Origin: Streptomyces rubrogriseus
GTDB taxonomy: Bacteria; Actinomycetota; Actinomycetes; Streptomycetales; Streptomycetaceae
Direction: 5' to 3'
NCBI RefSeq assembly: GCF_027947575.1
Contig: NZ_CP116256.1
Coordinates: forward strand, 6,572,001-6,636,000
DNA: 64,000 nt
Shown: in pieces, positions 32,284-45,157 of the stretch
Layout of the letters: each line of letters opens with the position of its first letter
Position numbering within the stretch: the stretch's first letter is position 1
Made by a program: the position numbers and the translations under genes
Notes under the pieces: model-generated
Seen by the model: only the letters and a program-made list of their open reading frames with translations
Database searches by the model: none
Told to the model about the DNA's origin: nothing

Positions 32284-33297
32284 ATGGTCACCCTCGCCGA
32301 GGTCGCCCAGCACGCCGGAGTCTCGGCGAGCACGGTGAGCTATGTCCTCAGCGGCAAGCGGTCCATCTCCACCACCACCCGGCAGCGGGTCGAGGAGAGC
32401 ATCCGGAAGCTCGGCTACCACCCGAACGCCGGTGCCCGCGCACTGGCCAGCAGCAGGTCGAACATCATCGCCCTCATGATCCCGCTGCGCACCGACATGT
32501 ACGTACCGGTGATGATGGAGATCGCCATCGCGGTCGCGGCCGGTGCGCGCACCCACGGGTACGACATCCTGCTGCTCACCGGCGAGGAGGGCCCCGACGC
32601 GGTGCGCCGGGTCACCGGCAGCGGGCTCGCCGACGCGATGATCCTCATGGACGTCGAGCTCGACGACGAGCGGCTCCCCCTGCTGCGAGGCACCGACCAG
32701 CCGTCCGTCCTGATCGGACTCCCCGCCGACACGGAGGGCCTCACCTGCGTCGACTTGGACTTCCGGGCGACCGGCGCGCTGTGCGTGGAGCACCTGGCGC
32801 AGCTGGGGCACCGCGACATCGCCGTCATAGGCGAGGCCGCCGCCGTCTACGAACGGCACACCGGATTCGCCGAGCGCACCCTCGACGGGCTGCGCACCCG
32901 CGCCCGCGAGCTGGGTCTGCGGCTGCTGCACCGGCCCTGCGAGGGCGGGTACGACGCGATGGCCGCGACGTTGGCCCGCGTCTTCGACGAACGCCCGGAC
33001 ACCACGGGGTTCGTCGTCCAGAACGAGGCGGCCGTCGAGCCGCTGCTCGCCCTGCTGCGCCAGCAGGGGCGGGCCGTGCCGGAGGACGTGTCGGTGGTCG
33101 CGGTCTGCCCCGAGCAGGTCGCCACCCAGGCCTCGGTGCGGCTCACCTCGGTCGCGGTGCCCGCGCAGGAGATGGGGCGGCGGGCCGTGGAACAGCTGGT
33201 CGCCAAGCTCGACGGCCGGGGCAGCGACGAGGTCGTGCTGCTCGCGCCGGAGCTGACCGTCCGGGCCAGCTCCGGACCGGCACCCGTCGGGCCCTAG
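32284..33297 (+). CDS. LacI-family transcriptional regulator of the glycoside-use locus
   Basis: A 337-aa LacI/GalR regulator starting at ATG 32284 (GGAG upstream). The N-terminal helix-turn-helix is VTLAEVAQHAGVSASTVSYV, with the hinge helix NAGARALAS near residue 55. The rest is a periplasmic-binding-protein-like effector domain (NIIALMIPLRTDMYVPVMME; HLAQLGHRDIAVIGE). Palindromes matching its family's operator type stand before its own gene and before both promoters of the nearby ABC/GH operon and the GH3 gene, 10 kb away. I infer that it represses this set until an oligosaccharide binds. The effector is unknown. Confidence 0.9.
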   Translation: MVTLAEVAQHAGVSASTVSYVLSGKRSISTTTRQRVEESIRKLGYHPNAGARALASSRSNIIALMIPLRTDMYVPVMMEIAIAVAAGARTHGYDILLLTGEEGPDAVRRVTGSGLADAMILMDVELDDERLPLLRGTDQPSVLIGLPADTEGLTCVDLDFRATGALCVEHLAQLGHRDIAVIGEAAAVYERHTGFAERTLDGLRTRARELGLRLLHRPCEGGYDAMAATLARVFDERPDTTGFVVQNEAAVEPLLALLRQQGRAVPEDVSVVAVCPEQVATQASVRLTSVAVPAQEMGRRAVEQLVAKLDGRGSDEVVLLAPELTVRASSGPAPVGP

Positions 33298-33313
33298 GGG
33301 TGTGAATTGCCGA

Positions 33314-33347
33314 GCGCGGGGGCCGGTCCCGGGACCGGCCCCCGCGC
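33314..33347. terminator. Bidirectional terminator between the LacI and GH12 genes
   Basis: GCGCGGGGGCCGGTCCC at 33314-33330 is followed directly by its exact reverse complement at 33331-33347. The 34-base perfect palindrome sits between two converging genes and could end both transcripts. Confidence 0.8.
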
Positions 33348-42268: not shown

Positions 42269-42301
42269 GTCCTGCCCGCTCCATCCCAAGGGGACCCTCA
42301 C

Positions 42302-45157
42302 GTGTCCGCACCCACGCCGCCGTTCCGTGATCCGCAACTGCCGTTCGCGAAGCGCGTCGACGACCTGATGTCGCGGCTCACGCTCGACGAGAAGACCGCC
42401 TTCCTGCACCAGTTCGCGCCCGCGGTCGAGCGGCTCGGCATCGCCGCCTTCCGCACCGGCCAGGAGGCGCTGCACGGCGTGGCCTGGATGGGCCCGGCGA
42501 CCGTGTTCCCGCAGGCCGTGGGCCTGGGCGCCACCTGGAACGAGGAGCTGGTGCGGCGGGTCGGCGAGGCGGTGTCCAAGGAGGCCAGGGCGATGCGCGC
42601 GCGGGACGACCGCGTCGGTCTCAACGTCTGGTCCCCGACCGTGAACCTGCTGCGCCACCCGCTGTGGGGCCGCAACGAGGAGGGCTACTCCGAGGACCCG
42701 AGGCTCACCTCCGCCGTCGCCACCGCCTACACCCGGGGCCTGCGCGGCGACCACCCGGCGTACTGGCGCACCGCGCCCGTCCTCAAGCACTGGCTGGCCC
42801 ACAACAACGAGACCGACCGGGACACCTCCTCGTCCTCCGTCCGTCCGCGGGTCCTCCACGAGTACGACCTGCGGGCCTTCCGCGCCACGGTCGAGGCGGG
42901 CGCCGTGGCCGGGGTGATGCCGGCCTACAACCTGGTCAACGGCCGCCCCAACCACCTCTCCCCGTACCTCGGCCGGCACCTGCGCACCTGGGCGCGGGAG
43001 GATCTCCTGGTCTGCTCGGACGCCGGCGCGCCCTCCAACCTGGTCGACTCGGAGCACTACTTCGACACCCACGAGGAGGCGACCGCCGCCGCGCTGCGGG
43101 CCGGGGTGGACAGCTTCACCGACCACGGGACGGACTCCTCGAAGATCGTCGCCCGCGTCCGGGGCGCCCTGGACGCGGGCCTGCTGACGGAGGCGGAGGT
43201 GGACGCGGCCGTGCGCCGTCAGCTGTCGGTCCGCTTCCGGCTGGGCGAGTTCGACCCGGAGCACGACCCGTACGCGGGCGCGGCGGACGCCGCCGCGGAC
43301 TTCGACACGCCGGAGCACCGGGCGCTCGCGCGGGAGGCGGCGGAGCAGGCGGTGGTCCTGCTCAGGAACGACGGGGTGCTGCCGCTGGCCCCCGAGACCC
43401 GGGTCGCCGTCGTCGGACTGCTCGCCGACGAGTGCAAGCTCGACTGGTACAGCGGCACGCTGATCCACCGCTCCACCCCGCTGGAGGGCCTGTACGAGCG
43501 GTTCGGCGCCGATCGCGTGAGCTTCGCGGAGGGCGTGGACCGGGTCCGGCTGCGCACGGCCGACGGCAGGTTCCTGCACGTCCTCCCGGCCGACGACGCC
43601 CCCGCCGGGGCACCCGGCGCGGAGGGCGCCCTGGACCCGGCCCTGCTCGCCGGCCGCACCGACCTGCTGCCCCTGACCACCGACGCCGTCGGCACCGAAC
43701 TGGCGCTGATCGACTGGGGCGAGGGCGTGCTCACGCTGCGCGCGCCCGACGGCCGGTACCTGTCCGTCGCCGAGGACGGCTTCGTGCGCGCCTCCGCGGA
43801 CCAGCCCGGGGGCTGGATCGTGCAGGAGACCTTCCGGCTGGAGCCCCATGACGACGGTCACCTCCTGAGGCACGTGGGAACGGGTCGTCCCGTCCAGGTC
43901 GCCGCCGACGGCGTGAAGGTTGCCGCGCCGGACGCCGGGGACACGGAGGCCGAGGTCTTCGAACTGGTCGTCGTCGAGCGCGGCGAGGACGCGGTGACGC
44001 GGGTGGCGGCGGGGGCGGACGTGGTCGTCGTGGTGGCGGGCAACGACCCGCACATCAACGGCCGGGAGACCGAGGACCGTACGACGCTGCGGCTGCCCGC
44101 GCAGCAGGAACGGCTGCTGCGCGCGGCCCGCGCCGCCAACCCGGCGACCGTGCTGGCGCTGGTGTCCGCCTATCCGTACGCGGTCGGCGTCGACACGCTC
44201 CCGGCGGTGCTGTGGACCGCGCACGGCGGGCAGGCGGCCGGCACCGCGCTGGCCCGGGTCCTCGCCGGGGACGTCTCCCCCGCGGGCCGGCTCCCGCAGA
44301 CCTGGTACGCCGACGACGCCGACCTGCCCGACCTGCTCGACTACGACGTGATCGGCGGCCGCCAGACCTACCTGTACTTCGAGGGGACACCGCTGTTCCC
44401 CTTCGGGCACGGCCTGTCCTACGCGTCGTTCGGGTACGGGGACCTGTCGGCTCAGGTGCGGGACGGGGCGGTGACCGTGTCCTTCACGGTCACCAACACC
44501 GGGGAGGTCTCCGCCGACGAGGTGGCCCAGCTCTACGTCCGTGCCGAGGCCCCGTCGGTCCCGCGCCCGCGCCGCGAACTGCTGGCCCACCGCCGGCTCA
44601 CCCTGGCCCCGGGGGCGTCGGACCGGGTCTCCTTCGAGGTCCCGCTGTCCGCCCTCGCGTTCTGGGACGTCGCGCACGACCGGTGGCGGCTGGAGCCGGG
44701 CCCGTACGCGCTGCTGGTGGGTGCCTCCAGCGAGGACGTGCGCCTGTCGACGACCGTCACGATCGACGGCGAGCCCGCCGTGCCGCGCCCGGTCGGCGCA
44801 CGGGGCGTGGCGGCGGTCGACTTCGACGAGCAGAGCGGCACGGAGATCGTCGACCGGACGAGGGCGGCGGGCGACGCGCTGACGGCGGTCGCCGGGCGTA
44901 CGGGCGAACTGCTCTACCGGGACTGCGACTTCGGTGCCGGGGTGAGCGCGCTGACCGTGTCGGTCGCGGGTGCGGGAGCGGTCGAGGTCGCCCTCGACGG
45001 GGGCCCGTGGACGGTGACGCTGTCACCCAACGCCCCGACCGCGGGGCCGTACGACTACGTGGAGCTGGAGAGCGCCTTCGCCGCCGAGGGCGTCCACGAT
45101 CTCCGCATCAGGCTGCGCGGCTCGTTGCGGCTCGCGCACGTCGGCTTCTCCGGTTGA
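42302..45157 (+). CDS. GH3 beta-glycosidase with inserted beta-trefoil-like domain and C-terminal CBM-like domain
   Basis: A 951-aa GH3 enzyme from GTG 42302 (AAGGGGA upstream). The TIM-barrel domain carries KHWLAHNNE near residue 162 and the nucleophile Asp240 in LLVCSDAGAP. The second domain (VVLLRNDGVLPLAPE) is split by an insert at about 412-560 with RLRTADGRFLHVL and LRAPDGRYLSVAEDGFV, which resembles a fascin/ricin-type beta-trefoil. It then resumes at VVVVVAGNDPHINGRETEDR. A fibronectin-like domain (about 700-790) and a roughly 120-residue CBM6/35-like end follow. No signal peptide. Activity is probably beta-glucosidase or beta-xylosidase; which one cannot be told from sequence alone. 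It is divergent from the transporter operon and shares its operator. Confidence 0.88.
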   Translation: MSAPTPPFRDPQLPFAKRVDDLMSRLTLDEKTAFLHQFAPAVERLGIAAFRTGQEALHGVAWMGPATVFPQAVGLGATWNEELVRRVGEAVSKEARAMRARDDRVGLNVWSPTVNLLRHPLWGRNEEGYSEDPRLTSAVATAYTRGLRGDHPAYWRTAPVLKHWLAHNNETDRDTSSSSVRPRVLHEYDLRAFRATVEAGAVAGVMPAYNLVNGRPNHLSPYLGRHLRTWAREDLLVCSDAGAPSNLVDSEHYFDTHEEATAAALRAGVDSFTDHGTDSSKIVARVRGALDAGLLTEAEVDAAVRRQLSVRFRLGEFDPEHDPYAGAADAAADFDTPEHRALAREAAEQAVVLLRNDGVLPLAPETRVAVVGLLADECKLDWYSGTLIHRSTPLEGLYERFGADRVSFAEGVDRVRLRTADGRFLHVLPADDAPAGAPGAEGALDPALLAGRTDLLPLTTDAVGTELALIDWGEGVLTLRAPDGRYLSVAEDGFVRASADQPGGWIVQETFRLEPHDDGHLLRHVGTGRPVQVAADGVKVAAPDAGDTEAEVFELVVVERGEDAVTRVAAGADVVVVVAGNDPHINGRETEDRTTLRLPAQQERLLRAARAANPATVLALVSAYPYAVGVDTLPAVLWTAHGGQAAGTALARVLAGDVSPAGRLPQTWYADDADLPDLLDYDVIGGRQTYLYFEGTPLFPFGHGLSYASFGYGDLSAQVRDGAVTVSFTVTNTGEVSADEVAQLYVRAEAPSVPRPRRELLAHRRLTLAPGASDRVSFEVPLSALAFWDVAHDRWRLEPGPYALLVGASSEDVRLSTTVTIDGEPAVPRPVGARGVAAVDFDEQSGTEIVDRTRAAGDALTAVAGRTGELLYRDCDFGAGVSALTVSVAGAGAVEVALDGGPWTVTLSPNAPTAGPYDYVELESAFAAEGVHDLRIRLRGSLRLAHVGFSG

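Follow-up and report, generated by a model that had tools for sequence, protein, structure and literature searches.

Xyloglucan loci of Cellvibrio japonicus and Bacteroides ovatus are Gram-negative uptake systems. Besides the gene loci for xyloglucan in these two species (PMC4285296, PMC4967831), a locus named XyGUL is described in Xanthomonas citri (PMC8245568). In Ruminiclostridium cellulolyticum, xyloglucan oligosaccharides enter by an ATP-binding cassette (ABC) transporter, and the enzymes Gal42A, Xyl31A, and Glu3A act in the cytosol (PMC8576529). Here, we analyze a locus encoding a LacI regulator, importer components, and putative glycoside hydrolases of families GH3, GH12, GH42, and GH95 in 64,000 nucleotides of Streptomyces rubrogriseus (the window, meaning this whole stretch: bases 6,572,001 to 6,636,000 of a single-contig, high-G+C genome of 8.41 Mb). 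As the full best explanation, we consider the locus a xyloglucan utilization system of Streptomyces, with a probability of roughly 0.86; this reading, predicted from sequence, comes mainly from comparison with the loci of relatives and is strongly supported by it. A survey of open-access titles and abstract openings, outside which most subscription papers lie, returned no description of such a system in Streptomyces.

The locus beside described xyloglucan systems

The R. cellulolyticum system is the nearest one described. Like it, the Streptomyces locus belongs to a Gram-positive organism and would combine cutting outside the cell, ABC uptake of large oligosaccharides, and then the action of GH42, GH31, and GH3 enzymes in the cytosol. 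According to the parts of the paper covered, R. cellulolyticum has two-component XygS/XygR control, where the Streptomyces locus has a LacI protein, and cellulosomal endo-enzymes, unlike the Streptomyces locus; the word fucose is absent from the main text as covered (PMC8576529). In the focal strain, unlike in R. cellulolyticum, GH31 lies outside the locus. The X. citri XyGUL likewise groups GH74, GH31, and GH95 for xyloglucan, and it differs in its TonB-dependent outer-membrane transporters, GH35 in place of GH42, and CE20 esterase; a LacI operator was not met in the portion of that text covered (PMC8245568). Among solved structures, its XacAfc95 (PDB 7kmq) is the nearest relative of the focal GH95, and its GH31 (7kmp) ranks second for the GH31 encoded in Streptomyces loci.

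The genes of the locus are as follows.

32284 to 33297, plus strand: lacI, LacI-family protein, putative locus repressor (Pfam LacI and Peripla_BP_3)
33369 to 34103, minus strand: GH12 endo-glucanase, secreted, putative xyloglucanase (Pfam GH12, 75.7 bits; signal peptide by eye)
34142 to 36367, minus strand: GH95, putative alpha-L-fucosidase or alpha-L-galactosidase of a divergent clade (Pfam GH95, 201.7 bits)
36364 to 38334, minus strand: GH42, beta-galactosidase family (Pfam GH42, 508.7 bits; best PDB match 9ta3, 549 bits)
38334 to 39305, minus strand: ABC permease, second of the pair (Pfam BPD_transp_1, 40.2 bits)
39302 to 40339, minus strand: ABC permease, first of the pair (Pfam BPD_transp_1)
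40367 to 42052, minus strand: solute-binding lipoprotein, SBP (Pfam SBP_bac_8; twin-arginine motif SRRSFL, lipobox LSAC)
42302 to 45157, plus strand: GH3, putative beta-glucosidase (Pfam GH3, Fn3-like domain, CBM6; the C-terminal GH3 domain has a long insert)

Pfam assignments bear out the eight genes named in a preliminary description of this DNA: lacI, a minus-strand series running SBP-permease-permease-GH42-GH95-GH12, and GH3, divergent from the SBP gene with 249 bases between them. In that order, the minus-strand genes are separated by 27 bases, a 4-base overlap, -1, -4, and 38 bases; the permease overlap assumes a GTG start of the second permease at 39305, as read from the sequence, and a shorter start would leave 23 bases. 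Such tight spacing makes a single transcript a fair inference, and the earlier proposal of one six-gene operon holds at that strength. The names LplB and YtcP given earlier to the permeases do not hold, their NCBIfam matches being sub-threshold only and best to UgpA- and UgpE-like families.

The predicted placement of a secreted GH12 and intracellular GH42 and GH95 agrees with the N termini read by eye, in which GH12 has a signal peptide and none is visible in GH95, GH42, or GH3. The locus thus holds a cytoplasmic beta-galactosidase family and a beta-glucosidase family with predicted activities. At the gene level, it also holds the importer of an ABC-import xyloglucan locus, namely, the SBP and two permeases, with a predicted ligand. 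The SBP twin-arginine motif scores above the cutoff of TIGR01409 and below that of Pfam TAT_signal. By sequence, the SBP has no PDB match; its structure model (mean pLDDT, 64.6) resembles AlgQ1/2 and FusA, proteins that bind oligosaccharides, with an identity of 13 to 16%. As stated earlier, neither a GH31 nor a transporter ATPase gene is found among the locus genes. Three MalK-type ATPase matches lie elsewhere in the genome, two of them at or over the family cutoff; one (L112) has no other transporter gene among the predicted genes in 3.1 kb, another (L113) sits among transporter-like genes, and MsiK was not identified by name among the three. With such genes present, MsiK might supply the ATPase, as proposed earlier.

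Several smaller features complete the locus. A perfect inverted repeat of 17 + 17 bp at 33314 to 33347 (34 bases, no loop) separates the convergent lacI and GH12 genes and is possibly a two-way terminator; the terminator scan, which requires a loop and a T-run, did not call it. A sigma-70 promoter scan found none. The GH3 insert spans window positions 43559 to 43981 (residues about 420 to 560) inside the C-terminal domain and is beta-trefoil-like by eye, with no family given. The locus is flanked on one side by an acyl-coenzyme A dehydrogenase (ACAD) gene, with dxr, an M50 protease gene, and gcpE farther out, and on the other by a response regulator/histidine kinase pair.

Related loci and the predicted substrate

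With the focal GH95 as the query, we took the best 80 of 153 matching loci and compared their gene content, families, synteny, and operator sites. The named relatives of GH95 are from Streptomyces, with one record labelled Kitasatospora. Gene presence was called by tblastn at ≥50% identity and >80 bits, and the resulting counts are lower bounds because some contigs end inside the locus. The core is widely retained, with GH95 in 80 loci, GH42 in 78, the second permease in 73, GH3 in 72, GH12, the first permease, and the SBP in 71 each, LacI in 66, and ACAD in 61. Two enzymes not encoded at the focal locus recur in the relatives: GH74 between the permease and GH42 (54/80) and GH31 between GH12 and lacI (44/80). 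Further extras, as families assigned from 20 scanned proteins, are GH36 in 11 loci, GH5 with CBM_X2 and carbohydrate-binding module CBM46 in 7, GH43 in 6, and a second GH42 in 4.

These added genes bring out the likely substrate. The GH31 of the relatives' loci matches the alpha-xylosidase MeXyl31 best (665 bits), followed by the Xanthomonas alpha-xylosidase 7kmp (350 bits). For their GH74, the top two PDB structures (500 and 483 bits) are named by a binding domain only, and xyloglucanases follow from 479 bits down, most of the matched structures bearing that name. The GH12 retained in the focal strain has NopAA (6sdu) as its best PDB match at 160 bits, with the runner-up at 91, and NopAA is described in its abstract as having xyloglucanase activity; GH12 is therefore probably a xyloglucanase, and the specificity of both endo-enzymes, GH12 here and GH74 in relatives, is predicted from such matches. 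GH42 may be counted as a known galactosidase for xyloglucan oligosaccharides because Gal42A does this in R. cellulolyticum. Taken together, the GH74 and GH31 of relatives and the NopAA-like GH12 uphold the xyloglucan substrate first proposed from the focal sequence.

A Sulfotransfer_3 gene (Pfam run on one; L036:12973-14160) also occurs in 20/80 loci, usually placed between GH12 and either GH31 or lacI.

Operators and a remote GH31 gene

Four LacI-type operator sites stand upstream of lacI and between the divergent SBP and GH3 genes; like the inverted repeat between lacI and GH12, they do not figure in the preliminary description.

32163 to 32176: operator O1, upstream of lacI, exact TCGAAGCGCTTCGA
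32253 to 32266: operator O2, upstream of lacI, TCGAAGCGCTTCAC, the reverse complement of GTGAAGCGCTTCGA
42145 to 42158: operator O3, 92 bases before the SBP start, exact TCGAAGCGCTTCGA
42254 to 42267: operator O4, 34 bases before the GH3 start, exact TCGAAGCGCTTCGA

At up to two mismatches, the window holds five matches against 0.32 expected, a number reached in 0/100 shuffles; the fifth lies inside GH3 and is taken as chance. In each of the 71 loci where both the SBP and GH3 genes are visible, the 450 bases upstream of the SBP contain two GAAGCGCTTC sites, no more and no fewer. Every one of these 142 sites reads TCGAAGCGCTTCGA, invariant at 14/14 positions; because the search pattern GAAGCGCTTC did not cover the two outermost bases at either end, the invariance there is an observation. 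The lacI gene is preceded by two GAAGCGCTTC sites in 64/66 loci and by one in 2/66. Of the extra genes in relatives (GH5 with CBM_X2 and CBM46, GH43, GH36, and the second GH42), some also have operator sites upstream; in L047, L092, and L095, pairs of sites precede the second GH42. The operator of Streptomyces CebR, TGGGAGCGCTCCCA, is likewise a palindromic 14-mer with an AGCGCT core upstream of polysaccharide-degrading genes (PMC5332605, as far as covered), and it differs from the locus operator at 4/14 positions by eye.

Genome-wide, two-mismatch counts barely exceed the reversed control (53 versus 46), and claims at that scale therefore use exact 14-mers. Exact operator copies are rare, numbering 3 to 5 per genome in eight relatives, where the reversed control occurs once or not at all. 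The focal genome has a single additional exact copy (position 2,176,158), which falls within a gene predicted by a simple codon-composition script. Six regions with operator-type matches, apart from the GH31 locus described below, were inspected; five sites fall in predicted genes, and one at genome position 972,412 (L022:6411-6424), with two mismatches, lies outside them. Related regulators carry the same operator. A LacI paralogue of 52% identity in genome G017 has a perfect operator upstream, and in G007 (L224:6859-10121) a perfect operator precedes a two-gene unit of a 64%-identical YicI-type GH31 and a LacI of 53% identity. These cases suggest that this LacI family reads the TCGAAGCGCTTCGA-type operator.

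The preliminary description proposed looking for a GH31 gene elsewhere, and a search of the genome returned four matches. The best, at 3,156,301 to 3,158,571, is 3.4 Mb from the focal locus and is a close full-length match to YicI (972 bits to 8t7z and 1we5), which we take to be an alpha-xylosidase. It is divergent from an SBP gene, with permease, GH1, and ROK genes nearby, and has operator-like sites. This genome has three copies of the 14-mer GTGAAGCGCTTCGA, one preceding lacI and the others at the start of the remote SBP and at codon 29 of the remote GH31. Across G000, G017, G020, and G027, its 10 copies comprise 4 adjoining lacI and 6 at the remote GH31, and its reversed control is absent from all 8 genomes searched. 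When 392 genomes were searched, the focal one included, the 30 best GH31 matches (85 to 100% identity) had a core GAAGCGCTTC site between the SBP and GH31 genes in 30/30 cases, as the GTG type in 18 and the TTG type in 12, at offsets from the GH31 start of -294 to -301 in 19 and -225 to -249 in 11; the codon-29 core site is present in 29/30. The remote GH31 is thus the best candidate, by similarity, for the missing alpha-xylosidase. Because LacI paralogues share the operator and the focal LacI is the sole LacI in this genome at E ≤ 1e-30, it probably controls this gene.

Several observations weigh against this link. GTGAAGCGCTTCGA is absent from G004 and G006 and occurs once each in G029 (next to lacI) and G015. 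Among 18 more distant GH31 genes, of which 11 are placeable, the codon-29 site is found in 0 and the intergenic site in 2. The PDB names of the YicI matches are alpha-glucosidase or putative family 31 glucosidase. Both remote sites are in frame here (Ser-Lys-Arg-Phe), and their conservation may therefore stem in part from coding constraint. At the SBP side, where 28/30 homologues are placeable (L204 and L220 are not), an ATG stands right before the site in 17/28, and in 15 of these 17 the frame stays open. The remote locus has a ROK regulator gene of its own, and lacI presence was checked in 8 genomes. A tree also sets YicI copies residing in the focal type of locus (support, 0.67) apart from the remote copies (1.0).

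The local ROK gene, the in-frame position of both sites, and the frequent ATG before the SBP-side site favor the strongest alternative, in which the remote locus answers to the neighboring ROK protein or another LacI and its operator-like sites are either an accident of coding or targets of that other regulator. The sharing of the operator by LacI paralogues of 52 to 53% identity in G017 and G007 also fits it. We nevertheless consider it unlikely. The site on the SBP side persists in all close homologues across both offset groups, and no second LacI was found in this genome at the above threshold. The codon before the site is AAG, TCG, or CAG in 8/28 homologues (TTG in 3/28), so the site is not start-codon-tied in at least those 8, and the ATG frame closes early in 2 further homologues. 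Moreover, G020 and G027 retain LacI (89 and 90% identity) and carry the remote sites without the GH95 of the focal locus, their GH95 matches being weak only (best E values, 1.7e-51 and 6.9e-25). In the 19.5 kb around the G027 LacI, ACAD was the sole locus gene found by tblastn. Beside the G020 lacI, an open frame (L182:12681-15116) has GH3-like and GH31-like parts by tblastn and a GH3 C-terminal domain with Fn3 by Pfam; it seems to be a remnant left by deletion of the locus.

Three views were given up along the way. We first regarded the in-frame remote sites as coincidence and revised this on their conservation in relatives; L117 was dropped as an example of a site away from a start codon, since TTG precedes the site there; and locus-resident YicI copies were no longer treated as strict orthologues of the remote gene after the tree. 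In G029, a YicI-type GH31 overlaps GH3 by 4 bases within the focal type of locus, under the operator pair, which counts in favor of the xyloglucan reading; in G004, an MFS gene separates it from GH3 at a distance of 2.1 kb, and in G015, the distance is 1.2 kb.

The GH95 clade, apparent gene loss, and the proposed pathway

The preliminary description specified fucosylated xyloglucan, of which the xyloglucan part is supported. Release of L-fucose by GH95 is plausible only, because the clade is divergent and its active-site motifs are altered. The focal GH95 has three Pfam domains of the GH95 architecture above cutoff, and its nearest structure by both sequence and fold is XacAfc95, 7kmq. Model confidence is modest (mean pLDDT of 64.5 for GH95, low around the active site, and similarly for the SBP), and we therefore argue no geometry. 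The catalytic residues of BbAfcA given in the GH95 literature covered (N421, N423, E566, and D766) and N397, N399, and D690 of XacAfc95 (PMC8245568, in part) lead by alignment to N356, N358, E485, and D646 in the focal protein; the transfer assumes that positions in the XacAfc95 paper are four above the chain index, which we deduced and the residues fit. N358, E485, and D646 are invariant in 80/80 homologues. The motifs around the focal active site (ANLNLQT and RGAENDSAHGH) differ strongly from those of the other GH95 in the genome, which scores 557 bits versus 204 for the focal one. A GH95-like match at E ≤ 0.001 occurs in 185/295 genomes of the genus, a count that mixes the focal clade with others.

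Several points count against the xyloglucan reading as a whole. Position 356, the first catalytic Asn, is Asp in 56/80 homologues and Asn in 24/80, the focal strain among the latter, and the clade is far from characterized members. The nearest PDB entries to GH3 are GH3 beta-xylosidases and beta-glucosidases, the nearest matches being beta-xylosidases. The focal locus has neither GH74 nor GH31. The basis is wholly computational.

The absence of GH74 and GH31 from the focal locus bears on a second alternative, namely, that in the focal strain and its near relatives the locus has turned to scavenging galactosylated or fucosylated fragments, already partly debranched, that others release, and the strain does not itself carry out complete xyloglucan breakdown. 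Among the 54 complete loci running from GH3 to ACAD, GH31 is present in 35, GH74 in 34, GH12 in 49, GH31 with GH74 in 28, and neither in 13; these 13 include L023, L024, L025, L027, L028, and L033, all near the focal strain. On a midpoint-rooted FastTree of ACAD, LacI, and GH95, parsimony over these complete loci places GH31, GH74, and GH12 all at the root, with 9, 10, and 5 changes, respectively. The focal locus therefore appears to have been trimmed by loss of GH74 and GH31. We judge the scavenging alternative improbable, since the genome still carries both activities elsewhere as candidates: the YicI-type GH31 with its operator-like sites, and a GH74-CBM2 gene directly behind a GH48 gene (L109:46-4131), an arrangement like that of a cellulase cluster. 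Four operator-type patterns (GAAGCGCTTC and three CebR-like) were all absent from the 5.3-kb stretch at the latter. Finally, another plant glycan as the target (L-galactose-bearing glucuronoarabinoxylan, pectin side chains, or beta-glucan, with xyloglucan one of several) would suit a GH95 family member that frees L-galactose from corn glucuronoarabinoxylan (listed in a review table), the beta-xylosidase-like GH3, the GH43 and GH36 of some loci, and a rhamnogalacturonan lyase between GH12 and GH31 in L037, yet it is very unlikely given that GH74 and MeXyl31-type GH31 each occur in over half of the 80 loci and that the 20 extra proteins scanned held no endo-xylanase family and one pectin lyase.

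Beyond the gene content, families, synteny, and conserved sites shown above, we infer what the substrate is, which way it flows, how the genes are repressed, that both sites share a regulator, and what each enzyme does in a xyloglucan utilization system. Secreted GH12, together with GH74 in relatives and GH5 with CBM46 in some, would cut xyloglucan outside the cell, and the oligosaccharides would enter through the lipoprotein and its two permeases, served by an ATPase whose gene lies elsewhere. In the cytoplasm, GH95 would take off an end sugar, most likely L-fucose, GH42 would remove galactose, a GH31 alpha-xylosidase xylose, and GH3 the backbone glucose. Acting at TCGAAGCGCTTCGA-type operators, LacI would keep lacI itself and the two divergent promoters repressed for as long as no xyloglucan fragment is bound to it. 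Under the same repressor, the alpha-xylosidase would probably come from the remote locus of the YicI-type GH31, with its similar sites. A wider picture is more tentative, and we hold it at somewhat less than even odds: a two-site regulon with changing locus membership, in which a remote GH31-GH1-ABC locus serves as an alpha-xylosidase backup and LacI outlives its own locus because the remote site is still under its control, along with a new GH95 subfamily, mostly Asp-x-Asn, of undescribed side-chain specificity.

Streptomyces play a major part in degrading plant matter in soil, and they live on roots, where xyloglucan is shed. A tomato rhizosphere study ties tomato QTL to variants in genes for a xyloglucanase, Xgh74A, and an alpha-xylosidase, apparently of Streptomyces (PMC9203511, as far as covered). 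The conserved locus and its defined operator, with a predicted repressor and regulon, make xyloglucan use testable in tractable strains, and the locus points to an uncharacterized clade of GH95.

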